A DNA stretch of 42,542 nt from Gammaproteobacteria bacterium (lineage in GTDB: Bacteria > Pseudomonadota > Gammaproteobacteria > Steroidobacterales > Foliamicaceae): assembly GCA_028821145.1 (NCBI GenBank), contig JAPPHC010000038.1, forward strand, positions 1-42,542, read 5' to 3'. How positions within the stretch are numbered: position 1 is the first letter of the stretch; the number at the start of each line of letters is the position of its first letter. The notes below the pieces were generated by a model that was not told the origin of the DNA, made no database searches, and saw only the letters and a list, made by a program, of their open reading frames with translations. Positions 4,961 through 27,678 of the stretch are shown here, one piece after another. The position numbers and the translations under genes are program-made.

Positions 4961-6352
4961 TCAGGGCAAGGCGGCCGCGGTTTCGCCCGCCAGCCTTCCG
5001 TAGGTGGTGGCGGTGAGCAGGCCGTTGCCGGCGATATAGCCCCAGCGGGACGGGCCCGAGACGCCGCGCGCCGCCCCGCCGCCCGCGAACAGGTTGGGGA
5101 AGGCGCTGCCGTCTTCGCGAAGCACGCGGGCCCGCGCATCCACCCGGAGTCCGCCCTGCGTGTGGAACAGGGCGCCGGTTACGCGAACCCCGTACCAGGG
5201 CGCGGCGAGTTCCGGCCTACCGGTGAAATCGCGGCCGAAGGGATCGGATGCTTCTCCCCGCGTCAGGGCCGCCGTCTCGGCCAGCGTCTCCTCCAGCGCC
5301 CCGGCCGGCAGCCCGAACAGTTCCGCCAGCTCTCCCGGGGTCGAGGCCTCTCGCACCGCGCCCGCGGTGATGGCTTCGCGGTAATCGTTGAATTCGTGCA
5401 TCAATTCGTGCAGGCGCTGGTCGTAGACGGTAACGGCAACGTGTTCGGGCTGCGCCAGCACCTCCATCGCCTGCTCGGAATAGCCGATTGATTCGTCGGA
5501 AAATCGCCTGCCCTCAAGATTGACCTGGATCCCGCCCTCCAGGATGACCGGCCACAGGATCGGCACGCCGTAGCCCTTTGCGAGACCGCCGTGCCCCTGG
5601 TAGGAGCCGATGTCGGCGATCGCCGCGCCGAGTTCCCGGCCCCACCGGATCGCCTCGCCCTGGTTGCCCGGATGACCGAAGAACTCGGCGTGGCGCAGCT
5701 CGGGGATATATTCGGCCACCATGTCCTGGTTGCCGGCGAAACCGCAGCAGGCCAGGATCAGCGCTTCGCAGCCGAGGTCCTCGGTGCTGCCGTCCGGGCG
5801 CACGCAGCGCAGCCCGCTTATGCGGCCGTCGGCATCGGCGAACAGGTGGCTGACGCGCGCGTCCGTCAGCAGGTCGGCGCCGGCGTCGGTGCAGGCGTCC
5901 AGCAGGGTGCCCATCAGTTCGGCGCCGGTGCGGTTGGGGCTGCCGTGCATGCGTTTGACGCTGTGCCCCGAGTAGAGGAAGCTGTCCACCAGCGACAGCG
6001 CCACGCCGCATTCGCCGGCCAGCCACTCCACGGTACGCGCGGACTCGCGGGCCAGCGCCAGCACAACGTCCGCGTCGGTCTGGTGCTTCGCCTTGGCCAG
6101 CAGGTCTTCGGCGAAGAGTTCCGGCGAATCCTCGATGCCCTTCTCGCGCTGCATCCGGGTTCCGGCGCCCGGTATGAGCCCCGTGGACATGCCGGTCGTG
6201 CCGATCGGCACGGCGTCGCGCTCGAGGATCAGCACCTCGGCGCCCGCCTGGCGGGCCGCGAGTCCGGCGCAAAGGCCGCAGCCGCCCGCCCCGACCACGG
6301 CCACAGGGACGCTCCAGTCGAAACGCGCTTCCCTGGCGGGCAATACGCTCAT
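4961..6352 (-). CDS. FAD_binding_2 flavoprotein (fumarate reductase / ketosteroid dehydrogenase-like)
   Basis: A 463-residue flavoprotein of the FAD_binding_2 family. It starts with a Rossmann dinucleotide motif VAVVGAGGCGLCAGLAA at about residues 17-33, followed by LILERD at the ribose-binding end. C-terminal motifs are LFHTQGGLRVD, NLFAGGGAARGVSG and GYIAGNGLLTATTYGR, which close the FAD site. Start 6352 is chosen because GAGGA lies 4 bases upstream; the open frame continues to 6463 but would overlap the divergent gene and adds no recognisable sequence. There is no signal peptide, so it is cytoplasmic. The family reduces or oxidises C-C bonds next to carboxylates or ketones. No heme or FMN domain is fused, so the electron partner is unknown. 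It is more divergent from the three tandem flavoproteins at 19344-23946 than they are from each other. Confidence 0.9.
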   Translation of the reverse strand: MSVLPAREARFDWSVPVAVVGAGGCGLCAGLAARQAGAEVLILERDAVPIGTTGMSTGLIPGAGTRMQREKGIEDSPELFAEDLLAKAKHQTDADVVLALARESARTVEWLAGECGVALSLVDSFLYSGHSVKRMHGSPNRTGAELMGTLLDACTDAGADLLTDARVSHLFADADGRISGLRCVRPDGSTEDLGCEALILACCGFAGNQDMVAEYIPELRHAEFFGHPGNQGEAIRWGRELGAAIADIGSYQGHGGLAKGYGVPILWPVILEGGIQVNLEGRRFSDESIGYSEQAMEVLAQPEHVAVTVYDQRLHELMHEFNDYREAITAGAVREASTPGELAELFGLPAGALEETLAETAALTRGEASDPFGRDFTGRPELAAPWYGVRVTGALFHTQGGLRVDARARVLREDGSAFPNLFAGGGAARGVSGPSRWGYIAGNGLLTATTYGRLAGETAAALP

Positions 6353-6413
6353 CCAATCCTCGGGCACTCGGCCCCGGTGACGAAAACGCGAATCATACGC
6401 TCCACTCGCCGTT

Positions 6414-6428
6414 GCGTTATCGTTACGC
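6414..6428. promoter_or_regulatory. Operator-like near-palindrome between divergent genes
   Basis: GCGTTATCGTTACGC has 4-base perfect arms GCGT and ACGC with a partly symmetric centre. It is the only clear dyad in the 109-base divergent gap between the flavoprotein gene and the DUF1838 gene, and lies 33 bases upstream of the latter's ATG. It may be a repressor or activator site serving both genes. No convincing -35/-10 pair was found around it, so the call is tentative. Confidence 0.25.
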
Positions 6429-6461
6429 ACTTCTGTCTGAACATGCCTGGGAGAGAGTTCC

Positions 6462-7352
6462 ATGAATCGGAGGGATTTGCTGCAGGGTGCGGCCGTGATG
6501 GGTATCGGTTTGGGCGCGCCTCGAATGTTGGCCGCGGAAGCGACGGCGGGCGCTGCCGCGGAAACACTGACGCTGCCCGGCGATCCGGAATCGCAATGCC
6601 GCGCGATGATCCGAGCCTACGGGAACGAGGGCGGCGATCCCTGCGTCTGGAAGACCCGCGGCAAGGTGTTCGCCGTGCAGGAAGACGCGGTCACCCCCAT
6701 GTACGGGTTTCTGGGCAGCGAGACCGGGTGGTGGAAGCAGGTGGAGGAACACGTGTGGGTGCGCTATCCGTCCACGGTCTCGTTCTTTACCGATCTCGAG
6801 ACCGGCGAGTTCATCGACCAGTACACGAGCCCCTTCAACGGCGCCACGGTTACGCTGCCGGCAAGTTTCATCCGGCACAAGGAGGGGCAGTACTACACGC
6901 CGATGGGCGTGTGGTTCGGCAGCATGAAGAGGGTATTCCCCGACCATTACGCCGAGAAGCCGCTGCACCTGGACTGGACCGACGACAACGGCGTGTTGCG
7001 CCTGCAGGAAGGCTCGCGCTTTCCTCCCATCCTCCCGCAGCCGTCGCTGGAATACGCCTCCCTTTTCGCCGCGACGCACGAGGTCCTGGGCGAGGAGCCG
7101 CATCAGCCGACCGCCGCAGCGGGTGGCTGGAACATCTTCTCCGCGACTCGCAGGCCGTACGACGAAATGGGCATCCTGCCCGGCCACGTGATATGGCATT
7201 TCGACGCGGTCAAGGTGCCGTCCTTCGAGGAGCTGGACGCCGGCTATCTCGAGCGCGCCCGGGCCCTGTCGCCGGTATTCGAGCAGTCGCCCGAGCACGA
7301 CGACGGACCGTCGTTCTTCGAGCGCATCATCGAGATGCGCGGCTTCGGCTGA
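6462..7352 (+). CDS. DUF1838 family protein with Tat signal
   Basis: A 296-residue member of the DUF1838 family, whose biochemical role is not established. The N-terminus MNRRDLLQGAAVMGIGLGA is a twin-arginine signal, so the protein should be exported folded to the periplasm, cleaved after about residue 25-30. The mature part has the family hallmarks of many Trp, Tyr and Phe residues, FFTDLETGEFIDQYTSPFNG at about residues 108-127 and a conserved WNIFSATRRPYDEMG. A Shine-Dalgarno GGGAGAGAG precedes the ATG. It is followed 21 bases later by the ornithine-cyclodeaminase-like gene, suggesting an operon. A second, diverged DUF1838 protein is encoded at 39137-40000. Tat export hints at a cofactor-bearing or fast-folding protein, but this is inference. 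Confidence 0.88.
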   Translation: MNRRDLLQGAAVMGIGLGAPRMLAAEATAGAAAETLTLPGDPESQCRAMIRAYGNEGGDPCVWKTRGKVFAVQEDAVTPMYGFLGSETGWWKQVEEHVWVRYPSTVSFFTDLETGEFIDQYTSPFNGATVTLPASFIRHKEGQYYTPMGVWFGSMKRVFPDHYAEKPLHLDWTDDNGVLRLQEGSRFPPILPQPSLEYASLFAATHEVLGEEPHQPTAAAGGWNIFSATRRPYDEMGILPGHVIWHFDAVKVPSFEELDAGYLERARALSPVFEQSPEHDDGPSFFERIIEMRGFG

Positions 7353-12581: not shown

Positions 12582-14084
12582 ATGGAACAGGGCGGCCGGC
12601 ACCTGCTGATCACCGGCAGCGCGGGTACCGGCAAGTCCACTCTCCTGAGCCACTTCTGCGAAAGCGTCGATTGGGACCCGGTGGTCCTGGCGCCGACCGG
12701 AGTGGCGGCGCTGAACGTGGGCGGCCAGACCGTGCACCGCTTTTTCGGCTTCGGGATCGACGTAACGCCGCAGGCCATCGCCGCGCGCCGCGGCAAGCCG
12801 CGCAACGCGAAGCTCTACAGGACCCTGCGCACGCTGATCATCGACGAGGTATCGATGCTGCGGGCCGACCTGCTCGACTGCGTGGACCTGTTTCTGCGGC
12901 GCTACGGCCCCCGATCCAACGCGCGCTTCGGCGGCGTTCACATGGTGTTCATCGGCGACCTCTACCAGCTTCCGCCGGTGGTTACCGGGCTCGAGCACCA
13001 GGCTCTGCGTGAGGTCTACGAGTCCCCCCACTTCTTCAGCGCCCGTGCGCTCGAGGACGTGGAGCTGGAGATCATCGAGCTCACGCGCGTATTCCGGCCG
13101 CGCGACAGCGAGTTCGTGCGCTTGCTGAACCGCGTTCGCAAGAAATCGCTGGAGGACCGCGACCTGGAGCGCCTGAATCGCCGGGTGGACCCCCATTTCG
13201 ATCCACCCGACGGCGAGGGCTACATCACGCTGACCGGCACCAACCGCAAGGCGGGCCTGATCAACCGCGACCGGCTGGACGGCCTGGCCGCGCCCGAGCA
13301 CCGGTTCGATGCCGTAATCGAAGGCGCTTTCGGCCGCGAGTACTACCCCACGGAGGCGCAACTTCGCTTCAAGGCAGGCGCCCAGGTCATGCTGCTGAAC
13401 AACGACGGGGCCGGGCGCTGGGTCAACGGCAGCATCGGCGTGATCGAGGGCGTGAACATCGGCGGCGGCGAGGCCTACGTGCTGGTCCGCCTGGCCGATT
13501 CCGGACGGCGCGTTCGCGTCGAGCCCTACGAGTGGGAGTTGATCCGCTTCGAGGCCCGCGAGGGGTCCATCTTCAGCAGTCCGGCGGGAACCTTCACCCA
13601 GTTTCCGTTCCGGCTGGCCTGGGCGGTGACCGTCCACAAGAGCCAGGGCAAGACTTTCGAGCGGATGGTGATCGATCTCGACCGCGTCTTCGCCGCCGGT
13701 CAGACCTACGTTGCCCTGAGCCGCTGCACGTCCTTCGAGGGGCTGGTGCTGACCCGCCCGCTGACGGCCGGTTCCATCCGTTGCGACTGGCGCGTGCAGC
13801 GCTTTCTGACCGGCGAGCAATACAAGCGCGCGGAACGAAGCCTGTCCACCGATACCAAGCTCGAAATCATCGAAAGAGCCATCGCCGCGGCCAGCCCCCT
13901 CGACATGGAGTACCTGAAGCGCAACGACGTGCGCACGCGACGCCGCATCCGCCCGCTGGAAGTGGGCATGCGGTCTTACTCCAACCGGGAATTCCTCGGC
14001 ATGCGCGCCTGGTGCATGCTCCGCCGGGACGAGCGCACCTTCCGCCTCGACCGCATCCTCTCCCTCAGCCCTCCCGACCCCTGA
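12582..14084 (+). CDS. Pif1-family DNA helicase with C-terminal WYL-like domain
   Basis: A superfamily 1B helicase of the Pif1/RecD2 type. Walker A is GSAGTGKST at about residues 12-20, Walker B is TLIIDEVSML, and motif III is FIGDLYQLPP. The C-terminal RecA-like part has WAVTVHKSQGKTFE and YVALSRCTSFEGL. The last roughly 75 residues (AIAAASPLDMEYL, then RRIRPLEVGM and FRLDRILSL) read like a WYL domain, a nucleic-acid-binding regulatory module also known fused to Pif1 in Thermotoga. The first ATG is at 12582, but conserved family sequence (ITDEFARALEG) is encoded just upstream in the same frame. That open stretch begins after a TGA at 12492 and has no ATG, GTG or TTG. The best candidate is CTG at 12525, with GGGAG 7 bases upstream, overlapping the lolB end by 11 bases. 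Confidence 0.9.
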   Translation: MEQGGRHLLITGSAGTGKSTLLSHFCESVDWDPVVLAPTGVAALNVGGQTVHRFFGFGIDVTPQAIAARRGKPRNAKLYRTLRTLIIDEVSMLRADLLDCVDLFLRRYGPRSNARFGGVHMVFIGDLYQLPPVVTGLEHQALREVYESPHFFSARALEDVELEIIELTRVFRPRDSEFVRLLNRVRKKSLEDRDLERLNRRVDPHFDPPDGEGYITLTGTNRKAGLINRDRLDGLAAPEHRFDAVIEGAFGREYYPTEAQLRFKAGAQVMLLNNDGAGRWVNGSIGVIEGVNIGGGEAYVLVRLADSGRRVRVEPYEWELIRFEAREGSIFSSPAGTFTQFPFRLAWAVTVHKSQGKTFERMVIDLDRVFAAGQTYVALSRCTSFEGLVLTRPLTAGSIRCDWRVQRFLTGEQYKRAERSLSTDTKLEIIERAIAAASPLDMEYLKRNDVRTRRRIRPLEVGMRSYSNREFLGMRAWCMLRRDERTFRLDRILSLSPPDP

Positions 14085-14092
14085 CCAGGTCC

Positions 14093-14098
14093 TATAAT
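14093..14098 (+). promoter_or_regulatory. -10 box (TATAAT) for the 14137-17659 operon
   Basis: A consensus TATAAT lies 38 bases upstream of the small-protein start at 14137 and just after the helicase stop. No good -35 hexamer lies 16-18 bases upstream, where the sequence is pyrimidine-rich. It may need an activator. It is the only consensus -10 in the short gap between the two genes. Confidence 0.5.
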
Positions 14099-14136: not shown

Positions 14137-14496
14137 ATGACCGACAATCCCGGCTACACGGCCGATTTCATCAAGTCCGACACGGACCAGGCGACGTTCA
14201 TGAAGGATCCGGCGATGGATCATCTGATGACGGCGCTGGTGTCGGTGAGCACGGAGATCTGGGCGCAGGCCCGGCGCATGAAGATCATGGAGCGATTGCT
14301 GGAGGACCATGGGAAGGTGACGCGCGAGATGATCGAGGGTTACATGCCGAGCGCGGAGGAGGAGGCGTCCTGGCGTGCCGAGCGCGACCGTTTCATCGAG
14401 CGGACCTTTGGTTCGATCACGGTGGGGCATTCGGGCGAGGGCCAGCCGATGATGGAGTTCCGCAACCGCTCGGGCATGGGAGGTGACCAGTCATGA
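14137..14496 (+). CDS. Small conserved-looking protein of unknown function
   Basis: A 119-residue soluble protein that I do not recognise. It is rich in Met and charged residues (DHLMTALVSVSTEIWAQARR, then MKIMERLLEDHGKVTREMIE) and is predicted largely alpha-helical. It has no signal peptide or cysteine. Start 14137 is chosen over an in-frame ATG at 14122 because GGGGGAG (14124-14130) stands 6 bases before it. Its stop overlaps the start of the Tat-methyltransferase gene (ATGA at 14493-14496), so the two are translationally coupled. The helical, acidic character and coupling suggest a partner or chaperone for the following exported enzyme, but that is inference. Confidence 0.85.
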   Translation: MTDNPGYTADFIKSDTDQATFMKDPAMDHLMTALVSVSTEIWAQARRMKIMERLLEDHGKVTREMIEGYMPSAEEEASWRAERDRFIERTFGSITVGHSGEGQPMMEFRNRSGMGGDQS

Positions 14497-15671
14497 TGAA
14501 TCGACGCACGATTCTGGGCGCCCTGGCCGCGGCCTTTTCCGCCACGGCTGCTACGCGCAAGGCGCGCGCGTCCACGGCCACCCCGCCTTCACCGCCGTAC
14601 GACTTCGAGCCGCGCGGCAACATCGGCAAGCTGGAGCGTCTGGCCAGTCTTGACCTGGAAAGCCGCCAGGACTTCCTGACCGGCTTCCGCGTCTGGTCGA
14701 ACGGCCCTCTCGGCCGCGCCGCACAGGTTCGCGCCGAACACATCTTCAAGCAAGAGGGCATCGATCCCGCGAGCAATCTTTCGATCGAGGCGCTGCGCGA
14801 GGTGCTGGAACGCGATCCGGTGATCGGCGCCAGCATGCGCTACTGGATCAGCGGCCAGCAGATCAGCTGGAAGATCCTGCAGGAGGAGTTCCACGGCAAG
14901 GCCGACACCTACCTGGCGGAGCTGGACGCGGCCGACAAGGCAGGTCCGGGCTCGGTGAAGCTGGACCCGGACCTCAAGGTCCCGGAATACGCTTCGCACG
15001 AAATCCACATCCAGCCCGGCGGCTACGTGGGCGATCCCTTTGCGGGCCACATCTATCACTACGGCACCAACCACTTCTACATGGGCCACAACGACCAGGA
15101 CGAGGTGCACGCGCAACTGGCGGCGGCGGTCGAGCCGCCCGAAGACGGCCAGGTCAAGCGTATTCTCGATCTGGCCTGCGGGCCCGGCCAGCTGACCCTG
15201 GCGCTGAAGGACCGTTTCCCGGATGCCGAGGTGTGGGGACTGGACGTTTCCGCTCCGATGGTGCGTTATGCGCACATGCGGGCGGTCGAGCTCGGCCGGG
15301 AACTGCACTTCGTGCAGGCGCTGGGCGAGAAGACCGGCTTTCCGGACGGGTTTTTCGACCTGGTGGCCTCGTACATCGTCTTTCACGAGACCCCGGCGAG
15401 TATCACCAGGGACATCGTTGCCGAGGTGCGCCGCATTACGCGTCCCGGCGGCGTGTTCCAGCCGTTCGATTTTCCGAGCGACGAGCACCCGCCCACCGGT
15501 TTCCGCAAGTTCAGGCGCTGGTGGGACCACCGCTGGAACCAGGAAGTGTGGCGCAACGAATTCGCGAGCATCCATTTTCCGACCGAGATCGAGAAGGCCG
15601 GCTTTTCGGTGCGCGAAGCGAAGAAGGGCGTGCTGTTCTTCGGGCGGGTCCACGCAACGCGCAACGCTTGA
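14493..15671 (+). CDS. Class I SAM-dependent methyltransferase with Tat signal
   Basis: A 392-residue protein whose N-terminus MMNRRTILGALAAAFSATAA is a twin-arginine signal, cleaved near ARKARAS/TA at about residues 25-30. Residues 30-215 are a helical region without a recognised domain (YDFEPRGNIGKLERLASLDL; MRYWISGQQISWKILQEEF). Residues 220-345 are a class I methyltransferase fold: motif I ILDLACGPGQLTLALKDRFP, motif II VWGLDVSAPMVRYA, post-I FPDGFFDLVASYIVFHET and a late VRRITRPGGVF. An exported methyltransferase is odd, because SAM is a cytoplasmic cofactor. Either SAM is loaded before Tat export, or the fold serves another purpose. Its TGA overlaps the TTG start of the PQQ dehydrogenase gene. 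Confidence 0.88.
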   Translation: MMNRRTILGALAAAFSATAATRKARASTATPPSPPYDFEPRGNIGKLERLASLDLESRQDFLTGFRVWSNGPLGRAAQVRAEHIFKQEGIDPASNLSIEALREVLERDPVIGASMRYWISGQQISWKILQEEFHGKADTYLAELDAADKAGPGSVKLDPDLKVPEYASHEIHIQPGGYVGDPFAGHIYHYGTNHFYMGHNDQDEVHAQLAAAVEPPEDGQVKRILDLACGPGQLTLALKDRFPDAEVWGLDVSAPMVRYAHMRAVELGRELHFVQALGEKTGFPDGFFDLVASYIVFHETPASITRDIVAEVRRITRPGGVFQPFDFPSDEHPPTGFRKFRRWWDHRWNQEVWRNEFASIHFPTEIEKAGFSVREAKKGVLFFGRVHATRNA

Positions 15672-17659
15672 GCCGCACCCAGCCACGAGGGCGCCCCCGG
15701 GAGCGAGGGCGTCCCGCCCGCATTCCGGGCCTGCTGGTCGCGGCAGGCCTTTTCATCGCCGCATCGGGCCCGCCCGCCCATGCGCAAACGGCCGAGGGCA
15801 ACGATGACGCGGCGGGGGAGTGGCCGAATTTCGGCAGGGACCCGGGCGGAAGCCAGTATTCTCCGCTGGATGAGATCAACCGGGAAAACGTAGGCCACCT
15901 CGAACAGGCCTGGGTACACCATAGCGGCGACTATGCGGAAGGCCCCTTCAGGATCGGGTCGACGCAGCAGGCCGTGCCGTTGATGGCCAACGGCCTGGTC
16001 TATTTCTGCACGCCCTTCAACCGGGTTTTCGGCGTCGATGCCGAAAGCGGCGAAGAGGTCTGGGTGTTCGATGCACACGCCGCGCTGACAGGAAACGAAG
16101 CCGAACGAGCAGGCGAACGCGGGCCGAGCACCTGCCGCGGGGTGGCCTACTGGGAGCGGACGGAAGCATCGACCGAGCCCTGCGCGAAGCGCATCTTCAA
16201 GGGCGACTTCACCGGCGCCGTCCACGCGATCGATGCGCTGACCGGGGAAGCCTGCCGGGACTTCGGCGCGGCCACGGATCACCCCGGCTACGTGTCGCAC
16301 TGGGATTACGAGGGCTATGGCGAAGGAGAGGTTCGCGGCATGTCGTCGCCGCCGGTGGTGCTGGGCGACCTGGTGATCGCCGGCAGCGGTTCGAACGACG
16401 GCATTGCCAATGCGAACGACGGGGTGGTGCGGGCCTTCGACGTGCGAACCGGGGCAATGGTGTGGGAATTCAATCCCATCCCCCCGGAGTACAGCGCCGT
16501 CACGGGCGCCGCCAACGTATGGACCACGATGAGCGCCGATCCGGCGCGCAACCTGGTTTTTCTGCCCACAACCAGCCCGTCGGTGGACTACTATGGCGGA
16601 GGCCGCCGCGTGGAACTTCCGCTGGCGAACGCCGTGGTGGCGGTGGACGGGGCAACCGGCAAGCCCGCCTGGTCTTTCCAGACCGTTCACCATGACCTGT
16701 ACGACTACGACCTGCCGGGCCACGCCCTGCTGGTGACCATCCGCAAGGACGGAAAGGCGCGCGAGGTCGCCATACAGCAGACCAAGAGCGGACATCTTTT
16801 CGTGTTCGACAGGGATACGGGCGAACCGGTTTTTCCCATCGAGGAACAGGCCATTCCGCCTTCCGATCTGCCCGACGAGACCGCCTTTCCCACTCAGCCA
16901 ATACCCATGGGCATCTCGACCTTCGCCCGCACCGAACTGGACCGGGAAAGCCTTTTCGGGATCACCGCGCTGGACCGCGCCTGGTGCCGCAGGCGGTTTG
17001 ACGAATCGCGCTACGACGGCCTCTTCACGCCGCCCAGCCGGCGCGGCAGCATCCTGTTTCCTTCGGCGCTGGGCGGCGGCAACTGGGGCGGCGCGGCGTT
17101 CGATCCGGCAAGCAATCTTCTCGTCATCAAGGCTGAGAACCTGGCTACCTGGCTGCGCTTCGTGCCGCTGGAAGAGGGTGAACATGACGGGCCGCGCGAC
17201 TATCTCAACCGCACACTGAGCGGAACGCCCTACCGCGTGGAGGGCGAGGTCTGGATCTCGCCTTCGGGGTTTCCGTGTACGCCGCCCCCGTGGGGCACGC
17301 TGAGCGCCATCGACATGGACAGCGGCGAGTTGCGCTGGCAGGTGCCCCTGGGACGTCTGCGCGCGATGGGCATTACATTGCCGTCCGGGTTCGGCTGGGG
17401 CTCGCCCAGCGTCGGCGGTCCCATCGTGACGGCCGGGGGCCTGGTGTTCGTGGCCTCCACCCTCGACCATAACCTGCGCGCCCTGGACGTGGAGACCGGC
17501 AATGAACTGTGGACCGGCAAGCTCCCCGCGCCGGGGATGACGGTGCCGATCACCTACCGCGCCGGCGGCCGGCAATACGTTGTGATCGCCGCCGGCGGAA
17601 ACGCGCGCGCGGGCACGGCGCAGTCCGACGCGCTGGTCGCCTTCGCGCTGCCTGACTGA
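15668..17659 (+). CDS. PQQ-dependent dehydrogenase (quinoprotein, glucose-dehydrogenase type)
   Basis: A 663-residue quinoprotein beta-propeller that would oxidise a sugar or alcohol in the periplasm and pass electrons to quinone or cytochrome. Propeller motifs include WPNFGRDPGGSQYSPLDEIN, CTPFNRVFGVDAESGEEVW, HHDLYDYDLPGHALL, GHLFVFDRDTGEPVFPIEE and LRALDVETGNELWTGKLPA. It lacks the membrane domain of E. coli Gcd, so it is probably soluble periplasmic. The only sensible start is TTG at 15668, overlapping the upstream TGA. It gives an unusually Arg-rich n-region of about 20 residues before the signal core GLLVAAGLFIAASG and a cut at AHA-QT. The n-region coincides with a short GC-rich repeat (15697-15719) that also interrupts acs. 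Third gene of the 14137-17659 operon. Confidence 0.92.
   Translation: MSRTQPRGRPRERGRPARIPGLLVAAGLFIAASGPPAHAQTAEGNDDAAGEWPNFGRDPGGSQYSPLDEINRENVGHLEQAWVHHSGDYAEGPFRIGSTQQAVPLMANGLVYFCTPFNRVFGVDAESGEEVWVFDAHAALTGNEAERAGERGPSTCRGVAYWERTEASTEPCAKRIFKGDFTGAVHAIDALTGEACRDFGAATDHPGYVSHWDYEGYGEGEVRGMSSPPVVLGDLVIAGSGSNDGIANANDGVVRAFDVRTGAMVWEFNPIPPEYSAVTGAANVWTTMSADPARNLVFLPTTSPSVDYYGGGRRVELPLANAVVAVDGATGKPAWSFQTVHHDLYDYDLPGHALLVTIRKDGKAREVAIQQTKSGHLFVFDRDTGEPVFPIEEQAIPPSDLPDETAFPTQPIPMGISTFARTELDRESLFGITALDRAWCRRRFDESRYDGLFTPPSRRGSILFPSALGGGNWGGAAFDPASNLLVIKAENLATWLRFVPLEEGEHDGPRDYLNRTLSGTPYRVEGEVWISPSGFPCTPPPWGTLSAIDMDSGELRWQVPLGRLRAMGITLPSGFGWGSPSVGGPIVTAGGLVFVASTLDHNLRALDVETGNELWTGKLPAPGMTVPITYRAGGRQYVVIAAGGNARAGTAQSDALVAFALPD
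15697..15719 (+). repeat. Short GC-rich dispersed repeat, copy 1 (within signal-peptide n-region)
   Basis: These 23 bases are identical to the reverse complement of 30336-30358 in acs. The unit begins CCGGGAGCGAGGGCG and carries the arms that pair GAGGGCG with CGCCCTC in the acs copy; here the second arm is degenerate. It is translated as part of the Arg-rich start of the PQQ dehydrogenase (RERGRPAR). Confidence 0.75.
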
Positions 17660-19343: not shown

Positions 19344-20885
19344 TCAGGCGAACACGCGCTCTCCGATCATGCGTCCGAATACCAGCGCCGGCGTCAGCAG
19401 CATCCCGTTGACGATGCCGAAGCCCGAAGTCGCTCCCGCGCCCAGCACCTCGCCGGCGGCGTAGAGGTTGGGGATGGGATCGCCGCTACCGTTCAGCACC
19501 TCGAGCCCCGGACTGACGGTCAGGCCCGCGAAGGAAATCAGGTGCGTGCCCTGCATGCGGATCGCATAGTACGGCGGCTTGCCGACCGGCAGCGGCATGT
19601 GCTCGCGGCCGAAATCGGAATCCTGGCCGCCCTCCTGACCGGAGTTGTAACGCCCTATGGAGGCGGCCAGCCCGTCGCCGTCGATACCGGCCCAGTAGGC
19701 CAGTTCGGCCAGCGAATCCCCGCGCGAGAAGAAGTGGAACTTGTCGAACGCCCAGTCCAGCCGGTCCCGGTCCCAGCCGCCCACCAGGGACGGCGCCGAG
19801 TCCATGATCTGCTGGTCGAACACGATCCAGAAGCGGTGGTCCTTCTGCCCGAGAAGCGCGTGCTCGCGAGCATCCACGCTGGGATGGTCTTCACGCACGA
19901 AGCGTTGCCCGCCCGAATTCACGTAGACCTCCCAGGGCAGGCGCGTCTGCGGCGCGGTGCGCACCGGCACGGGGGCCGGAGTGCTCGGCACGTTGAAGTC
20001 GTTCAGCACCATGCCGAAGGCAACCAGGAAGAGTTCTCCGCCGCGCAGCGTGCCGCCCGCCCCCACGCCCATCTCCAGGCCGCCGCCCAGATTGAAGGGA
20101 TAGGCCATGTTGGCGTACAGCGGTGCGCCATGCAGTTCCCGGAACATTTCCGGATTGGCCGCGCAACCGCCCGTGGTCAGCGCCACCTTGCGGCCCAGCA
20201 GGTCCATCTTGCGCCCCATTGCGTCGCGCACCATGACGCCGTTCACCGCCCCGGATTCGTCCTGAATCAGTTCCTGCGCGTCGGTGCGAATCAGGAACTC
20301 GATGGAGCCCTGGCGCGCCAGTCCGAGGAATTGCGGCAACAGAATCTTCAGGATCGCGACCCCGAACTGTTCCGCCCACTGGTAGCGCCGCGTCAGATAG
20401 GGTTCGTGCCCGCCGCCCACGACCGGGTGGCCGGGCAGCGGGGTAAAGCCATTCGCGCCCAGCCAGTCAATGGTCCTGGCCGCTTCGTTGACGAACACGC
20501 GGACGAGGTCCTGGTCGATCTTGCCCTTGCTGATGCGCATGATGTCGTCAAAGTGGGCCTCGGGCGAATCCTCGATCCCGTGCTCGGCCTGGAATCGCGT
20601 TCCCGCGGCAGAGATCTGCCCGAAGGAACGATCGAGCGTGCCTCCCAGCCGGTGCGCGCGATCCACTACCAGCACCCGGGCGCCCTGCTGCGCCGCAAAG
20701 ATCGCGCAGGGCAGCCCGGCCGACCCGCCGCCCACCACGATCAGGTCCCAGGTTTCGCTGGCCGCGCGGCTGATGCGGGGCATCAGCGCCAGTGCCGCCG
20801 CCGCTCCCGCGCCCGTAATCAACTCTCTCTTGTTGAGCCGGAAGCTCGCGGTGTCCGTCGCGGTATCAATTTCGGTCTTGCTCAT
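19344..20885 (-). CDS. FAD-dependent oxidoreductase, FAD_binding_2 family (tandem copy 1), exported
   Basis: A 513-residue flavoprotein. The N-terminus carries a Tat-like leader (LNKRELITGAGAAAALALMP, KR instead of RR) cut near ISRAAS at about residue 42. A FAD Rossmann motif follows, VVGGGSAGLPCAIFAAQQG, with GGGSAG at 52-57. The substrate-cap domain includes GQRFVREDHPSVDAREHALL. The C-terminal FAD lid is LYAAGEVLGAGATSGFGIVN. The family includes fumarate and urocanate reductases and ketosteroid dehydrogenases; no FMN or heme domain is attached. Start 20885 is supported by GGGAGGA 6 bases upstream, better than the ATG at 20900. The gene lies 20 bases after copy 2 and 39 bases before SulP in the same direction. 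Confidence 0.92.
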   Translation of the reverse strand: MSKTEIDTATDTASFRLNKRELITGAGAAAALALMPRISRAASETWDLIVVGGGSAGLPCAIFAAQQGARVLVVDRAHRLGGTLDRSFGQISAAGTRFQAEHGIEDSPEAHFDDIMRISKGKIDQDLVRVFVNEAARTIDWLGANGFTPLPGHPVVGGGHEPYLTRRYQWAEQFGVAILKILLPQFLGLARQGSIEFLIRTDAQELIQDESGAVNGVMVRDAMGRKMDLLGRKVALTTGGCAANPEMFRELHGAPLYANMAYPFNLGGGLEMGVGAGGTLRGGELFLVAFGMVLNDFNVPSTPAPVPVRTAPQTRLPWEVYVNSGGQRFVREDHPSVDAREHALLGQKDHRFWIVFDQQIMDSAPSLVGGWDRDRLDWAFDKFHFFSRGDSLAELAYWAGIDGDGLAASIGRYNSGQEGGQDSDFGREHMPLPVGKPPYYAIRMQGTHLISFAGLTVSPGLEVLNGSGDPIPNLYAAGEVLGAGATSGFGIVNGMLLTPALVFGRMIGERVFA

Positions 20886-20905
20886 CAGAAATCCTCCCAC
20901 GGGTG

Positions 20906-22447
20906 TCAGGCGAACACGCGTTCCCCGATCATGCGACCGAACACCAGCGCCGGTGTCAGCAGCATCCCGTTGGTGATGCCGAAGCCGGTCAGCGCTCCCG
21001 CGCCCAGCACTTCGCCGGCGGCGTAGAGATTGGGGATGGGATCGCCGTTCCCGTTCAGCACTTCAAGGTTGGTGTTCACGTTCAGGCCGGCAAAGGAAAG
21101 CAACTGGGTGCCCTGCATGCGGATGGCGTAGTACGGCGGCTTGCCCAGGGGCAGCGGCATGTGCTCGCGGCCGAAGTCGGGGTCCTGTCCGCTCGCCTGG
21201 GCGGAGTTGTAGCGCCCGATGGAGGCGGCCAGTCCCTCGCCGTCGATGTCGGCCCAGTAGGCCAGCTCGGCCAGGGAATCGGCACGAGAGAAAAAGTGGT
21301 ACTTGTCGAAAGCCCAGTCCACCCGCTCGCTGTCCCAGCCCATGACCACCGACGGCGCCGCGTCCCGGATGGCCTGGTCGAACACGATCCAGTAGCGGTG
21401 GCCTTCCTGTGCGAGCAATGAGTGTTCGCGCGCGTCCACGCTGGGATGGTCTTCGCGCACGAAGCGCTGCCCCGCGGTGTTGACGTACACCTCCCAGGGC
21501 ATGCGGCGTTCCGGGGCGGTGCTGATGGGCACTCCAGCGGGCGTGCTCGGCACGTTGAAGTCGCTCAGCACCATGCCGAAGAAGGTCTGGAACAGCTCCG
21601 CGCCGCGCAGCGTGCCGCCCGCGGCCACGCCCATCTCCAGGCCCCCGCCCAGGTTGTAGGGATAGGCCAGGCTTGCGTACAGCGGCACCCCGTGCAGGTC
21701 CCTGAACATTTCGGGGTTGCCCGCGCAGCCGCCGCTGGTCAGCGCCACCTTGCGGCCCAGCAGGTCCATCTTGCGCCCCGTCGCATCGCGCACCATGACG
21801 CCCTTCACCGCACCGGTATCGTCCTGTATCAGTTCCTGCGCGTCGGTGCGGATCAGGAACTCGATCGACCCCTGCCGGGCAAGATCGAGGAACTGGGGCA
21901 GCAGGATCTTGAGGATCGCGACTCCGGCCTGTCCGGCCCACTGGTAGCGCCGGGTCAGATAGGGCTCGTGTCCGCCGGACTTGACGGGATGGCCGTCCAG
22001 GGGGGTAAAACCGTGCTCGCCCAGCCAGTCCAGGGTCCTGGCCGCATCATTGACGAAGACCCGGACCAGGTCGGTATCGACCTTGCCCTTGCTGATTCGC
22101 ATGATGTCATCGAAATGCGCTTCGGGCGAATCCTGGATCTCCAGTTCGGCCTGCAGCCGGGTGCCGGCGGCCGCTATCTGGCCCGAGGAACGGTCCAGCG
22201 TTCCGCCCAGGCGGTGGGCGCGTTCGACCACGAGGACCCGGGCGCCCTGCTGGGCGGCGAAGATCGCGCAGGGAAGCCCCGCCGAGCCGCCGCCGATCAC
22301 GATCAGGTCCCAGGTCTCGCTGGCAGCACGGCTGATGCGCGGCATCAGGGCCAGCGCCGCCGCCGCGCCCGCGCCGGCAAGCAGTTCCCGCTTGTTCAGC
22401 TGCATTTCCCCGGCTTCGGCCAGGAATTCAAACGATCTGTTGCGCAT
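20906..22447 (-). CDS. FAD-dependent oxidoreductase, FAD_binding_2 family (tandem copy 2), exported
   Basis: A 513-residue paralogue of copies 1 and 3, highly similar along its full length. The leader LNKRELLAGAGAAAALALMP is nearly identical to copy 1 but preceded by a different N-terminal extension (MRNRSFEFLAEAGEMQ). The FAD motif is VIGGGSAGLPCAIFAAQQG. Cap residues GQRFVREDHPSVDAREHSLL and lid LYAAGEVLGAGALTGFGITN are conserved, with small changes that could alter substrate specificity. Start 22447 is fixed by GGGAGGG 8 bases upstream; the ATG at 22486 lies in the conserved leader region and lacks an equivalent. It is preceded by a promoter-like element shared with copy 3. Tat-type export of a FAD enzyme implies a periplasmic reaction with electrons exchanged with quinone or cytochrome (inference). 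Confidence 0.92.
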   Translation of the reverse strand: MRNRSFEFLAEAGEMQLNKRELLAGAGAAAALALMPRISRAASETWDLIVIGGGSAGLPCAIFAAQQGARVLVVERAHRLGGTLDRSSGQIAAAGTRLQAELEIQDSPEAHFDDIMRISKGKVDTDLVRVFVNDAARTLDWLGEHGFTPLDGHPVKSGGHEPYLTRRYQWAGQAGVAILKILLPQFLDLARQGSIEFLIRTDAQELIQDDTGAVKGVMVRDATGRKMDLLGRKVALTSGGCAGNPEMFRDLHGVPLYASLAYPYNLGGGLEMGVAAGGTLRGAELFQTFFGMVLSDFNVPSTPAGVPISTAPERRMPWEVYVNTAGQRFVREDHPSVDAREHSLLAQEGHRYWIVFDQAIRDAAPSVVMGWDSERVDWAFDKYHFFSRADSLAELAYWADIDGEGLAASIGRYNSAQASGQDPDFGREHMPLPLGKPPYYAIRMQGTQLLSFAGLNVNTNLEVLNGNGDPIPNLYAAGEVLGAGALTGFGITNGMLLTPALVFGRMIGERVFA

Positions 22448-22474
22448 TTGATGAACCCTCCCAATCGAGGTAGT

Positions 22475-22487
22475 CATTCTACGCACG
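22475..22487 (-). promoter_or_regulatory. Conserved leader element upstream of flavoprotein copy 2
   Basis: Read on the minus strand this is CGTGCGTAGAATG, identical to 23972-23984 upstream of copy 3. It contains TAGAAT, which fits a -10 box, and lies 27 bases before the start codon. No strong -35 is seen. Flanking sequence is not conserved apart from the Shine-Dalgarno, so the element may be under selection or simply a remnant of the duplication. Confidence 0.5.
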
Positions 22488-22512: not shown

Positions 22513-23946
22513 CTAGCTGAAGACGCGTTCCCCGATCATGCGTCCGAATACCAGCGCCGGAGTGAGCATCATCCCGTTGACGATGCCGAATCCGGTGGTC
22601 GCCCCGGCCCCAAGCACTTCTCCGGCGGCGTAGAGGTTGGGAATGGGCTCGCCGTCCCGATTCAGCACTTCGAGTTGCGGATTGACGTGAAGCCCCGCAA
22701 ACGTCAGCAGTTGAGTGCCCTGCATGCGGATCGCATAGAACGGCGGCTTGCGGACCGGCAGCGGCATGTGCTCGCGGCCGAAATCCGGGTCCCGCCCGGC
22801 GGCCTGCCCGGTGTTATAGCGCTCGACGGCTGCCGCGAGGCCCTCCGCCTCGACGCCTGCCCAGAAGGCCAGCTCCCCAAGCGTCTCCGCGCGCGAGAAG
22901 AAGTGATATTTGCTGAAGGCGAAGTCCAGCCGCGCGCGGTCCCACCCCAGCGCCACCGGCGGCGCGGTGTTCATGATCTCCTGGTCGAAGATCATCCAGT
23001 AGCGATGGCTCTCCTGGGCGAGGAGCGCGTGTTCGCGCTCGTCCACGCTCGGATGGTCCTCGCGCACGAAGCGCTGCCCGGCCGAGTTCACGTACACCTC
23101 CCAGGGCATGCGCCGCTCCGGGTAGCTGTTGACCGGGACTCCGGCGGGCGTGCTGGGCACATTGAAATCGTTCAGCACCATGCCGAAAAAGGTCGTGAAC
23201 AGTTCCGCTCCCCGCAAGACGCCACCGGCCGCCACGCCCATTTCCAGGCCGCCGCCGAGATTGAACGGATAGGCCAGCCGCGCATACATCGGAACGCCGT
23301 GCAGCCGCTCGAACATCTCGGGGTTGCCTCCGCATCCTCCGGTGGTAATCGCGACCTTGCGCCCCTTCAGGTCCATCCTGCGACCCAGGGCGTCTTCCAC
23401 CATCACTCCCGTTACGGCGCCGTCAGCGTCCTGAATGAGTTCCTTTGCGTCGGTACGGATCAGAAATTCGATCGAGCCCTTGCGGACCAGATCCATGAAT
23501 ACGGGCAAGAGGGTTCTCAGGATCGCCACGCCGTTCCCCGCCGCCCATTGATAGCGGCGCACCCTGTACGGTTCGTGGCCTCCGGTAGTTACCGGGTGGT
23601 CGGGCAACGGCGTGAACCCGTGATCGCAGAGCCAGTCCACCGTCCTGGCCGCCTCGCCAACGAACACGCGGGCCAGATCGGGGTCCACCTTGCCGCGACT
23701 GATGCGCATGATGTCGTCGTAGTGCGCATCCGGCGAATCCTGAATGCCCTGTTCCGCCTGGATACGAGTTCCCGCCGCGGCGATCTGCCCGGTCGAGCGG
23801 TCCAACGTTCCACCCAACCGGTGCGCCCGGTCCACCACCAGCACCCGCGCGCCCTGCATGGCCGCGAATATCGCGCACGGCAGCCCCGCCGATCCTCCGC
23901 CCACCACGATCAGGTCCCAGGTCTCGCTCGCCGCCTTGTTGAGCAT
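22513..23946 (-). CDS. FAD-dependent oxidoreductase, FAD_binding_2 family (tandem copy 3), leaderless cytoplasmic form
   Basis: A 477-residue paralogue of copies 1 and 2. It begins MLNKAASETWDLIVVGGGSA. Compared with copy 2, the 21 residues between LNK and AASETWD, which are the whole Tat-like hydrophobic leader, are missing in frame. This copy is therefore expected to stay in the cytoplasm. The catalytic body is intact: GQRFVREDHPSVDEREHALL, then LYAAGEVLGAGATTGFGIVN. Start 23946 is supported by GGGAGG 8 bases upstream. The ATG at 23988 would add a non-homologous stretch and is rejected. As the promoter-proximal gene of the trio it is transcribed first, divergent from the HAD-MATE-TRAP genes. 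Confidence 0.92.
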   Translation of the reverse strand: MLNKAASETWDLIVVGGGSAGLPCAIFAAMQGARVLVVDRAHRLGGTLDRSTGQIAAAGTRIQAEQGIQDSPDAHYDDIMRISRGKVDPDLARVFVGEAARTVDWLCDHGFTPLPDHPVTTGGHEPYRVRRYQWAAGNGVAILRTLLPVFMDLVRKGSIEFLIRTDAKELIQDADGAVTGVMVEDALGRRMDLKGRKVAITTGGCGGNPEMFERLHGVPMYARLAYPFNLGGGLEMGVAAGGVLRGAELFTTFFGMVLNDFNVPSTPAGVPVNSYPERRMPWEVYVNSAGQRFVREDHPSVDEREHALLAQESHRYWMIFDQEIMNTAPPVALGWDRARLDFAFSKYHFFSRAETLGELAFWAGVEAEGLAAAVERYNTGQAAGRDPDFGREHMPLPVRKPPFYAIRMQGTQLLTFAGLHVNPQLEVLNRDGEPIPNLYAAGEVLGAGATTGFGIVNGMMLTPALVFGRMIGERVFS

Positions 23947-23971
23947 TTGAAGAGCCTCCCAACGAACTTGC

Positions 23972-23984
23972 CATTCTACGCACG
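23972..23984 (-). promoter_or_regulatory. Conserved leader element upstream of flavoprotein copy 3
   Basis: The same 13 bases (CGTGCGTAGAATG on the minus strand) as at 22475-22487, here 25 bases before the copy 3 start. TAGAAT may be the -10 of the first promoter of the flavoprotein trio. It sits in the 92-base gap divergent from the HAD gene, whose own -10-like TAAAAT is at 24009-24014. Confidence 0.5.
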
Positions 23985-24038
23985 GCATTTTTGTTCCGCT
24001 GCCGGCCCTAAAATGCGCGTCTGCCTCGGGAAGGAACC

Positions 24039-24775: not shown

Positions 24776-26146
24776 ATGGAAGCGCGCCTGACCGAGGGGC
24801 CCGTCGGCCGCCATCTCTGGGAACTGATGGTCCCGATGATGATCGGGCTGCTGGCCATGATCTCGTTCGGACTGGTGGACGCCTGGTTCGTCAGCCGGCT
24901 CGGTCCACTGCCGCTGGCCGCCGTCAGTTTTACGCAGCCCGTGGGGTTCGTCGTGGCCGCCGTTGCGATGGGCATCGGCGTGGGCGCCAGTTCGGTGATC
25001 GCGCGTCTGCTGGGCCAGGGCAACAGGCGCCGGGTGCGGCGCATCGCCACCCATGCGTTCATGCTGAGCGGAATGCTGGGCCTGGTGCTGCTGGCGGCGG
25101 GTTGGGTCTTCATGGACGACATCTTCGGACTGATGGGCGCCGACGAGACCACGATGCCGCTGGTTCGCGACTATATGGAGATTTACCTGGTCGGGCTGAT
25201 CTTGGTAATTGGGCCCGCCATCGGCGGTGCGATCCTGCGCGCGCTCGGGGACGCCAAGTCGCCTGGAGTCCTGCTCGCCCTCACCGCCCTGGTCAATGCC
25301 ATCCTGGACCCGATCCTGATCTTCGGCTTGTTCGGGTTCCCCCGGCTGGAGGTGCAGGGCGCGGCGCTTGCCACCGTGATCGCCAACTTTTTGTCGCTGG
25401 CGGCCATGCTGGTCATCGGCATCCGCCGCGACAAGTTCCTGACGCTGCGCGGCATGAAACTGATTCTCGATTCCTGGAAGCGCATCCTGCACGTGGGGCT
25501 TTCGGCCACCGCTTCCGGGTTGATGGCGCCACTGACTTCCGCATTCGTGGTGGCGATGGTGGCCCGCTTCGGCCAGACGGCGGTGGCCGGCTTCGGCGTC
25601 GGAATCCGCACCGAGGCGATGGCGCTGTTGCCGTTCATGGCTCTGGGCGCCGCGATCGGACCGTTCGTGGGCCAGAATGCGGGCGCGGAACGGATGGACC
25701 GGGTGCGCGAGGCGCACAACTGGTGCCTGCGCTTCACGTCCATTTACGGCCTCTCCGTGGCCGCCCTGCTGAGCATCTTCGCCGTGCCGATTGTTGGACT
25801 ATTTACCCATGACGAGGGCGCCATGCGCGCGGCGGTGACCCAGCTTCGCATCCTGCCCTGGACCTATTGCCTGCTGGGCGTGACCATTGTCGCGAACACT
25901 TCCCTCAACGCGCTCGGCAAACCCCTGGCGGCCATGATGGTCTCGCTGTGCCGGACGCTGCTGGTCTATGTGCCGCTTTCGTGGCTGCTGGGCCTGTGGT
26001 TCGGGCTGATCGGGGTGTTCTTCGGCGGCGCCCTGGGCAACCTGGTGTCCGCCGCCGTCGGCTTTCTGCTCCTGCGGCGCGGGCTGCGCCAGATTGAGCT
26101 GACCGGCGCTCTTCCGGACTTGGACCGTGGCAAGGTCGCGGCTTAA
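24776..26146 (+). CDS. MATE-family efflux transporter
   Basis: A 456-residue multidrug and toxin extrusion (MatE) protein of the inner membrane with about 12 hydrophobic segments. The N-terminal half starts GPVGRHLWELMVPMMIGLLA, then VDAWFVSRLGPLPLAAVSF. Mid-protein ALTALVNAILDPILIFGLFG is typical, and the second half repeats the pattern (GFGVGIRTEAMALLPFMALG). It would export cationic drugs or metabolites against Na+ or H+. Start 24776 has no Shine-Dalgarno but TATCAT at 24761-24766 stands 9 bases upstream, so the message may be leaderless; upstream in-frame sequence to 24455 overlaps the HAD gene and is not protein-like. The dctP gene begins inside its last 20 bases. Confidence 0.93.
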   Translation: MEARLTEGPVGRHLWELMVPMMIGLLAMISFGLVDAWFVSRLGPLPLAAVSFTQPVGFVVAAVAMGIGVGASSVIARLLGQGNRRRVRRIATHAFMLSGMLGLVLLAAGWVFMDDIFGLMGADETTMPLVRDYMEIYLVGLILVIGPAIGGAILRALGDAKSPGVLLALTALVNAILDPILIFGLFGFPRLEVQGAALATVIANFLSLAAMLVIGIRRDKFLTLRGMKLILDSWKRILHVGLSATASGLMAPLTSAFVVAMVARFGQTAVAGFGVGIRTEAMALLPFMALGAAIGPFVGQNAGAERMDRVREAHNWCLRFTSIYGLSVAALLSIFAVPIVGLFTHDEGAMRAAVTQLRILPWTYCLLGVTIVANTSLNALGKPLAAMMVSLCRTLLVYVPLSWLLGLWFGLIGVFFGGALGNLVSAAVGFLLLRRGLRQIELTGALPDLDRGKVAA

Positions 26147-27152
26147 GACGCTAGCCGCCGCGCTCGCGCTGGCGGCTTGCGCGCCGGCCGCCGGCGAGGA
26201 GACGCTGACCCTGGTGAGTTCCTGGAACCGCCAGATCAATTTCTCGCAGCACGCCCAGCACTACATCGACGCGGTCAACGAACGAGGCCGCGGCGTCGTT
26301 CAGATCGAGTTCATCGGCGGCCCGGAGGTCATTCCTCAGCGCCAGCTCTTCTACGCCCTGCGCCGCGGCGTGATCGACATGGCGCTGGGCGGTATCACCT
26401 ACTACCTCGGGCTGCTGCCGGAGGGCGACGCCATCTTCGCCTCCAACATCGACCCGATGCAGGCGCGCGCCAGCGGCGCGCTCGAGGCCCTGCAGCCGTA
26501 CTGGAAGAAACGCGCCAACGCCCACCTGATCGGCTGGATGCAGTCCGGCATCGGCATCAGCATCTACCTGGCCCGCCGGCCCGAATTCACGCCCGACGGA
26601 ATGCCGGACCTTCGCGGCCTGAAGCTCCGCACCTCGCCGTCCAACCGGGAACTGCTCTACGCCTTCGGGGCCCGCCCGGTGCAGATTGCCCTGCGCGAAA
26701 CGTATACCGCCCTGCAGCGAGGCATCGTCGATGGCCTGGCCTTCACCAGCGTGGGTCTCGCGGACCTGGGCGTGGAGGAGTTCGTCCGCTACCGCATCGA
26801 CCCGGAAGTGCTGAACCTCTCCATCTGCCTGCAGATCAACCTCGACCGCTGGAACGCCCTTAGCGACGAAGCGCGCCACATCCTCACCGACGAGGCGACC
26901 CGGTACGCGGTGGAGGCGAATCAATGGTTCCGCGAACTGCGCATTCGCGAATACGCGGAACTGGCCGAGACCGGTTTCCAGAGCGTGCCGGCGCCGGATC
27001 CGGAGGCTTTTCGGGACCTTGCCCACCAGGTGGTCTGGGAGCGCATGCGCAAGCGCGCTCCCGACTCGGTCGAGGCGCTGAAGCCGCTGTTTTACCCGCA
27101 GAGCGACGAAGCGGCCCGGGTGGAAGGGCGCCCCGTCCTCAATGAACCTTAG
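26127..27152 (+). CDS. TRAP transporter substrate-binding protein (DctP family)
   Basis: A 341-residue periplasmic solute receptor. The signal peptide ends in LALAACAPAAGEE, which could be a lipobox (LAAC) or a signal peptidase I site. The DctP fold is shown by WNRQINFSQHAQHYIDAVNE, DMALGGITYYLGLLPEGDAI, LRGLKLRTSPSNRELLYAFG and ALQRGIVDGLAF. The Arg in LKLRTSPSNR is the usual carboxylate-binding position, so the substrate is probably an organic acid. The start is GTG at 26127, inside the end of the MATE gene (20-base overlap), and its end overlaps dctQ by 11 bases, so all three are coupled. Confidence 0.93.
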   Translation: MARSRLKTLAAALALAACAPAAGEETLTLVSSWNRQINFSQHAQHYIDAVNERGRGVVQIEFIGGPEVIPQRQLFYALRRGVIDMALGGITYYLGLLPEGDAIFASNIDPMQARASGALEALQPYWKKRANAHLIGWMQSGIGISIYLARRPEFTPDGMPDLRGLKLRTSPSNRELLYAFGARPVQIALRETYTALQRGIVDGLAFTSVGLADLGVEEFVRYRIDPEVLNLSICLQINLDRWNALSDEARHILTDEATRYAVEANQWFRELRIREYAELAETGFQSVPAPDPEAFRDLAHQVVWERMRKRAPDSVEALKPLFYPQSDEAARVEGRPVLNEP

Positions 27153-27669
27153 GGGCATGTCCAGGGAGATGATTTCCAGGGCCTGGGACAAGCTCGTGAA
27201 CGGCATGGTGCTGTTCGCCTGCGCGCTGATCGCCGCCGACTGCCTGCTGATCGTGGTGGACGTGACCCTGCGCAACTTCGGCCGGCAACCGCCTGCCTAC
27301 ACGGTCGCACTTACCGAGTATTCGCTGCTCTACCTGACCATGGCCGCCGCGCCCTGGCTGGTGCGCGAGCGCGCCTGGATCGTGGTGGAAGTCATCTACC
27401 GGCGGACTTCACCGACTTTGCGTGGAAGGCTCGACAAGCTGATCTTCGGCCTCTGCACCCTGGTCAGCGTAATCGTGGCGGTGATGGCCGGCATCCTTGC
27501 GGTAGAGGGCGTCATGCGGGGCGAAGTCGAAATCCGCTCGCTGGACATGCCGCGCTGGGCGCTGTTTGCACCGGTGACGCTGGGCTTCTCCATGATGGCG
27601 GTGGAGTTCACGCGTTGCCTCATCCGCGGGGACAGCATGTCCCAGGCCGAGGCCGACCAGGCCTTCTGA
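27142..27669 (+). CDS. TRAP transporter small permease subunit (DctQ)
   Basis: A 175-residue membrane protein with four hydrophobic segments: GMVLFACALIAADCLLIVVD, YTVALTEYSLLYLTMAAAPW, LIFGLCTLVSVIVAVMAGIL and WALFAPVTLGFSMMAVEF. This is the DctQ layout; it holds the large permease and binding protein in a functional Na+-coupled TRAP complex. The start at 27142 has GGAAGGG about 12 bases upstream. Internal ATGs at 27157 and 27169 are possible but sit directly against purine runs. It overlaps dctP by 11 bases and is 9 bases before dctM. Confidence 0.92.
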   Translation: MNLRGMSREMISRAWDKLVNGMVLFACALIAADCLLIVVDVTLRNFGRQPPAYTVALTEYSLLYLTMAAAPWLVRERAWIVVEVIYRRTSPTLRGRLDKLIFGLCTLVSVIVAVMAGILAVEGVMRGEVEIRSLDMPRWALFAPVTLGFSMMAVEFTRCLIRGDSMSQAEADQAF

Positions 27670-27678
27670 TCTTCCGTC

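Follow-up and report, generated by a model that had tools for sequence, protein, structure and literature searches.

Three overlapping genes

Within the window, by which we mean the whole 42,542-nucleotide stretch of DNA analysed here, a methyltransferase gene with an N-terminal twin-arginine (RR) leader is joined by overlaps to the gene of a small helical protein on one side and to that of a PQQ-type dehydrogenase on the other. The locus raises the question of whether an S-adenosylmethionine (SAM)-dependent enzyme is exported here to act outside the cytoplasm, and which of its neighbours belongs with it. The features on which the analysis turns are as follows.

14093–14098, + strand: TATAAT, candidate −10 element; CTATAAT is kept in the window and three orthologues.
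14137–14496, + strand: gene of the small helical partner, 119 aa; its paralogues adjoin nearly every methyltransferase paralogue.
14493–15671, + strand: gene of a class I SAM-dependent methyltransferase, 392 aa, with an N-terminal helical region and an RR leader.
14493–14570, + strand: predicted Tat-type signal peptide MMNRRTILGALAAAFSATAATRKARA, with a predicted cut after ARA; judged from its sequence and kept in 27 enzymes of one clade.
15138–15482, + strand: SAM-binding core (residues 216–330), with motif I DLACGPG, D251, D289 and H298-E299.
15668–17659, + strand: PQQ-type beta-propeller dehydrogenase with a Sec-type leader and a TTG start, loosely associated; judged from PF01011 and a signal-like N terminus.

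All three genes lie on the + strand and are joined by four-base overlaps, ATGA between the first and second and TTGA between the second and third, as an earlier note on this DNA had described. The start of the small gene at 14137 is supported by the divergent orthologue L034, from which the upstream in-frame ATG is absent, and the TTG start of the dehydrogenase recurs with its overlap in three orthologues (L031–L033), while L034 fits a later start. The TATAAT box noticed ahead of the operon held up in part: CTATAAT, about 40 bases 5′ of the small gene, is kept in four aligned orthologous upstream regions, the most divergent included, which is more than expected by chance, but a promoter scan found no recognisable −35 box or sigma-70 promoter 5′ of the small gene.

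Directly upstream of the operon (12582–14084), the window encodes a PIF1-like helicase whose C-terminal domain is WYL-like. Elsewhere, it contains four FAD_binding_2 flavoproteins (4961–6463, 19344–20900, 20906–22486 and 22513–23988), of which that at 19344–20900 carries a KR-type leader and has a TRAP transporter nearby (26127–28965), as well as a 733-aa protein (2591–4792) that joins a beta-lactamase-type domain (PF00144) to DUF3089.

The dehydrogenase is a neighbour within one genus

The dehydrogenase matches the PF01011 propeller over its full length (E 5.8e-195) and falls below the cut-off for TIGR03074, the membrane-bound PQQ glucose/quinate dehydrogenases (580 against 832.65 bits). An orthologue is present in all nine genomes of the genus, and seven of these contain the trio, with a short gap in G002 and G008. 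In G003, the dehydrogenase follows a lone small gene, the methyltransferase being absent, and in G005 it follows a predicted DNA methylase, the whole pair being absent; in G003, Pfam identifies a DNA methylase of this type. Outside the genus other genes, for the most part with signal peptides, follow the pair, and only within it does the dehydrogenase adjoin the pair. The trio, present in seven genomes and broken in two where the dehydrogenase persists without the methyltransferase, is thus a genus-level arrangement, and the idea of a conserved three-gene system is not supported; the three-gene order, suggested as a check in other genomes, was found only as far as the genus extends. In the nine genomes, all matches to PqqC and PqqE stay far below their curated cut-offs, so PQQ may come from elsewhere or the dehydrogenase may not use PQQ. 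The bacteria of the genus, which do encode PQQ-type dehydrogenases, may import PQQ made by other organisms.

The methyltransferase and the small protein form the conserved unit

The conserved unit at this locus is the pair of methyltransferase and small protein. Genomes of the genus contain 9–20 methyltransferase matches and one relative up to 32, counts that include a few weak matches per genome to unrelated class I enzymes; small-protein matches are nearly as numerous and mostly adjoin methyltransferases. Of the 95 family methyltransferase genes read from loci fetched around the matches, 78 are flanked on one side or the other, no more than 160 nt away, by a small gene in the same orientation, and no natural fusion of the two proteins occurs among the 95. 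In the clade of leader-bearing enzymes, the small gene is upstream in 23 of 23 pairs, whereas outside this clade it is upstream in 19 and downstream in 36. Four complete leader-bearing methyltransferases (L065, L069, L071 and L158) lack an adjacent small gene. In most pairs, the methyltransferase has no leader and begins directly with the mature domain.

A profile search placed the small protein in 9 of 369 genomes of the class and 4 of 398 of the phylum, the window's own genome included. Of 15 small-profile matches examined outside the order, 13 abut a family methyltransferase and the others are 1.1 kb away from such a gene. Metagenome-assembled Gammaproteobacteria are the nearest named records; pairs also occur in other gammaproteobacterial families and in sphingomonads, whose plasmids carry the same pair, annotated on pJE1 as a class I methyltransferase and a hypothetical protein. 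Pairwise distances in the two proteins were correlated in a mirror-tree comparison (Spearman 0.456 over 46 dereplicated pairs, with 0 of 2000 permutations as high), as expected of a module that was duplicated as a unit.

A functional partnership of the two proteins is therefore very likely, and genes 1 and 2 are best read as a single instance of a two-gene module that exists in many copies and specifies a two-subunit methyltransferase, from which we infer that the proteins form a complex. A small protein family that, though unnamed, has stayed with a methyltransferase family over dozens of duplications and in different classes of Proteobacteria should be needed for the enzyme's work. In the open-access literature that we searched, neither this pair nor a periplasmic or exported methyltransferase is described.

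The small protein is helical and accompanies leaderless enzymes as well

The small protein of the window has neither a signal peptide nor a Cys residue and belongs to no named family in Pfam or NCBIfam. Its structure model (pLDDT 64), which like that of the methyltransferase is of modest confidence, shows a long helix, then a short one and a third, with ends of low confidence, and a fold search with this model gave no match. R47 and E52 were invariant in our first alignment. Partners of leader-bearing methyltransferases have in common an FIKxDTDxxxF-like N-terminal segment that is absent from other partners, and they are not poorer in Cys than those. A tblastn search of plasmids with the small protein alone as query returned nothing useful. 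We rejected as chance a likeness of its profile to nitrile hydratase alpha, a short helix-turn match over 24 residues; E was 0.0005 for a single entry, which has a duplicated segment, and 0.5 for the others.

The earlier suggestion that the small protein might be a maturation partner is supported as to partnership and not as to maturation. Because leaderless methyltransferases are accompanied by the same family just as tightly, the gene neighbourhoods indicate that it is not a Tat-specific maturation factor and that its role predates export.

The methyltransferase retains a complete SAM site

The enzyme was claimed to be a class I methyltransferase with a full motif set, and our searches bear this out. 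Methyltransf_25 matches residues 224–320 (E 2.3e-20, 73.5 bits against a cut-off of 27), the SAM core contains motif I and the invariant D251, and the fold search agrees with the class assignment. H172, D251, D289, H298, E299, E311, R314, N349 and E351 are each kept in 26 of 26 enzymes of the leader clade, the SAM residues among them, and the catalytic His-Glu pair and other conserved residues are the same in leaderless paralogues. H298 aligns with His120 of CouO, a residue whose importance was shown by mutagenesis and which has been proposed as the general base (PMC5289526). Whole-gene dN/dS is about 0.11–0.14 (0.09–0.11 in the SAM core, 0.08–0.30 in the leader), as expected of a real gene under purifying selection. 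Given the retained SAM and active-site residues and the low dN/dS, the leader-bearing form is probably still a SAM enzyme and not a relic.

A full-length relative of the leaderless methyltransferases, with no small partner, is encoded on an IMG/VR viral contig (L116:3665-4822), which may be phage or mis-binned host DNA.

The RR leader marks a single clade

Judged by motif, hydropathy and conservation, the RR leader noticed earlier is real. In the window, it reads MMNRRTILGALAAAFSATAATRKARA and is followed by S after the predicted cut; it has the RR motif, uncharged h-region and N-terminal cleavage site of a Tat substrate, and basic residues precede the ARA site, as is typical of Tat. Across 27 enzymes with 22 distinct leaders, the consensus is M-x-N/D/K/G-RR-T/S/Q-I/L/V-L/M/F followed by an uncharged stretch. 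A tree of 93 family members places every leader-bearing methyltransferase in one clade (support 1.0); all 27 complete members of this clade have the leader, and contig ends truncate the two that lack it. Automatic RR calls in L164 and L187 were dropped, as they lie in frames upstream of the true start. The clade spans five GTDB families (f1, f2, f3, f6 and f11), and the twin Arg, the uncharged h-region of moderate hydropathy, the basic c-region and the AxA-type site are kept across about 50% identity, so that a single gain followed by retention is the simplest history. TatC was present in all seven genomes tested. Taken together, the sequence features make it probable that the leader directs Tat export.

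Further differences set the clade apart. Mature leader-clade enzymes contain 0–2 Cys compared with 3–6 in the nearest leaderless clades, and the gene downstream has a signal-like N terminus, by a heuristic call, in 5 of 8 leader clusters compared with 5 of 47 others (Fisher p 0.003). Neighbours of leader pairs include TonB receptors, a Tat-leader alpha/beta hydrolase, and DM13 and FGE-sulfatase proteins. Since Cys loss and exported neighbours both belong to a single clade, they do not count as independent events.

At several loci (L051:7019-10108, L148, L149–L154 and L159), two family modules stand back to back and divergent, one leaderless and one with an RR leader. In most genomes a lipoprotein-like gene comes after the leaderless module, encoding an S41 peptidase where its product was identified; an RR-leader alpha/beta hydrolase follows the other. 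Additionally, leaderless modules are repeatedly followed (L075, L053, L161 and L080) by the gene of a protein of about 530 aa whose N terminus carries a shared 'SQDVYRxG'-like motif.

A model of export, and its alternatives

The model that we favour, and to which we assign an even chance, is that of a two-subunit methyltransferase of which one lineage was retargeted to Tat, is exported folded with SAM bound and acts in the periplasm. In this model, the methyltransferase and its dedicated small alpha-helical subunit, probably a heterodimer, existed before one lineage gained a Tat signal peptide. The enzyme would be made and folded in the cytoplasm with the small subunit and SAM bound, and, because it would have to fold around SAM first, Tat would be its natural route. 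Once folded, it would cross the membrane by way of Tat, probably with the small subunit, which has no leader of its own, as a hitchhiker, and the enzyme's leader would be cut after ARA. Alternatively, the small subunit may stay in the cytoplasm after folding the enzyme. We rank joint crossing above this, and, by analogy with hitchhiker export as established for other pairs, including HybOC and PaoABC (PMC4273604; PMC10924467), regard co-export as a balanced proposition. In the periplasm, the methyltransferase would act on a hydroxylated (phenol-type) compound through its invariant His-Glu pair, working beside oxidoreductases, hydrolases and TonB receptors that are encoded nearby and exported as well. 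Its SAM might suffice for one turnover per exported molecule, remain bound as an unconsumed cofactor or come from an external supply. We know of no SAM supply for a periplasmic methyltransferase, and this counts against our explanation. Methyl transfer outside the cytoplasm is put forward tentatively, and the complete scheme, in which the enzyme binds SAM in the cytoplasm, leaves it through Tat as a folded heterodimer with its leaderless subunit and performs SAM chemistry in the periplasm, is likewise possible but somewhat doubtful.

Several other explanations deserve consideration. The exported enzyme might no longer methylate, its SAM- or SAH-loaded fold serving as a bound-cofactor isomerase or lyase or as a periplasmic ligand binder, which would need no SAM supply. 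A few methyltransferase-fold enzymes use SAM as a structural cofactor, Tat export suits a protein that folds around its cofactor first, and bound, unconsumed SAM would explain why the SAM-site residues were kept; however, with the His-Glu pair and the other conserved residues matching those of leaderless paralogues, there is no sequence mark of changed chemistry, and we consider this unlikely. We are similarly sceptical that the leader does no more than anchor the enzyme in the membrane, or is a signal of low efficiency, leaving the methyltransferase on the cytoplasmic side to use cytoplasmic SAM with the small protein as its cytoplasmic subunit. Although SAM is cytoplasmic, the small subunit leaderless and most of the family cytoplasmic-type, the conservation of every part of the leader, twin Arg to AxA-type site, at about 50% identity argues against an anchor, as do the Cys loss and exported neighbours of the leader clade.

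The remaining explanations concern the neighbours. A dedicated pathway of PQQ-dependent oxidation and methylation, suggested by the 4-nt overlaps and the presence of the trio in seven of nine genus genomes, is improbable, as the dehydrogenase persists in G003, where the methyltransferase is missing, and in G005, where both genes of the pair are, no PqqC or PqqE exceeds the curated cut-off in the nine genomes, and other leader pairs adjoin TonB receptors, the Tat-leader hydrolase, and DM13 and FGE-sulfatase proteins instead. We think it very improbable that the small protein is a TorD/DmsD-like Tat proofreading chaperone for the methyltransferase or the PQQ dehydrogenase: it is small, helical and leaderless, its gene is upstream and overlapping, and the FIKxDTDxxxF-like segment is confined to partners of leader-bearing enzymes, but the same family stands beside leaderless methyltransferases, those of sphingomonads included, is near PQQ dehydrogenases only in this genus and, among 24 members, gave no match to a Pfam chaperone family of this type.

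If our model of an exported two-subunit enzyme is correct, the exported branch offers a clean case for asking if SAM enzymes can function beyond the cytoplasm, because the leader arose once and was kept, along with the SAM site; leaderless paralogues that share a genome with the exported enzyme would provide natural controls.

Comparison with known systems

The best PDB sequence matches of the methyltransferase, also among its best fold matches, are enzymes of the CouO/NovO and CysG/BelI types, with which it shares the SAM core and the histidine. Of the His120-Arg121 catalytic pair of CouO, His is kept and Arg121 is replaced by the nearly invariant Glu299. Compared with these enzymes, the window protein adds an N-terminal region of about 200 residues, the small partner and, in this clade, the predicted Tat leader. 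Yeast Coq5 was its best Foldseek match, and fold and core motifs are like those of UbiE/COQ5; however, its score of 40.6 bits against a cut-off of 158.35 places it outside that family (NCBIfam TIGR01934).

In serving a class I methyltransferase as its obligate partner, the small protein would resemble Trm112-type activators, but it is not a zinc-ribbon Trm112, given its mostly helical model and lack of the conserved Cys residues of that fold. From TorD/DmsD chaperones it differs in that it neither matches their family profile nor is restricted to Tat substrates. A close counterpart of the pair is on plasmid pJE1 of Sphingomonas sp. JE1, where the gene of a class I methyltransferase precedes that of a hypothetical protein, 119 aa long, from the same small family; this pair differs in having no RR leader and cytoplasmic-type oxidoreductases as neighbours. 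For the proposed export, the parallel is with Tat hitchhikers such as the HybOC hydrogenase and PaoABC, in which one subunit has an RR leader and its partner none (PMC4273604); those are redox enzymes with metal cofactors, whereas the pair described here would extend the arrangement to a SAM enzyme.
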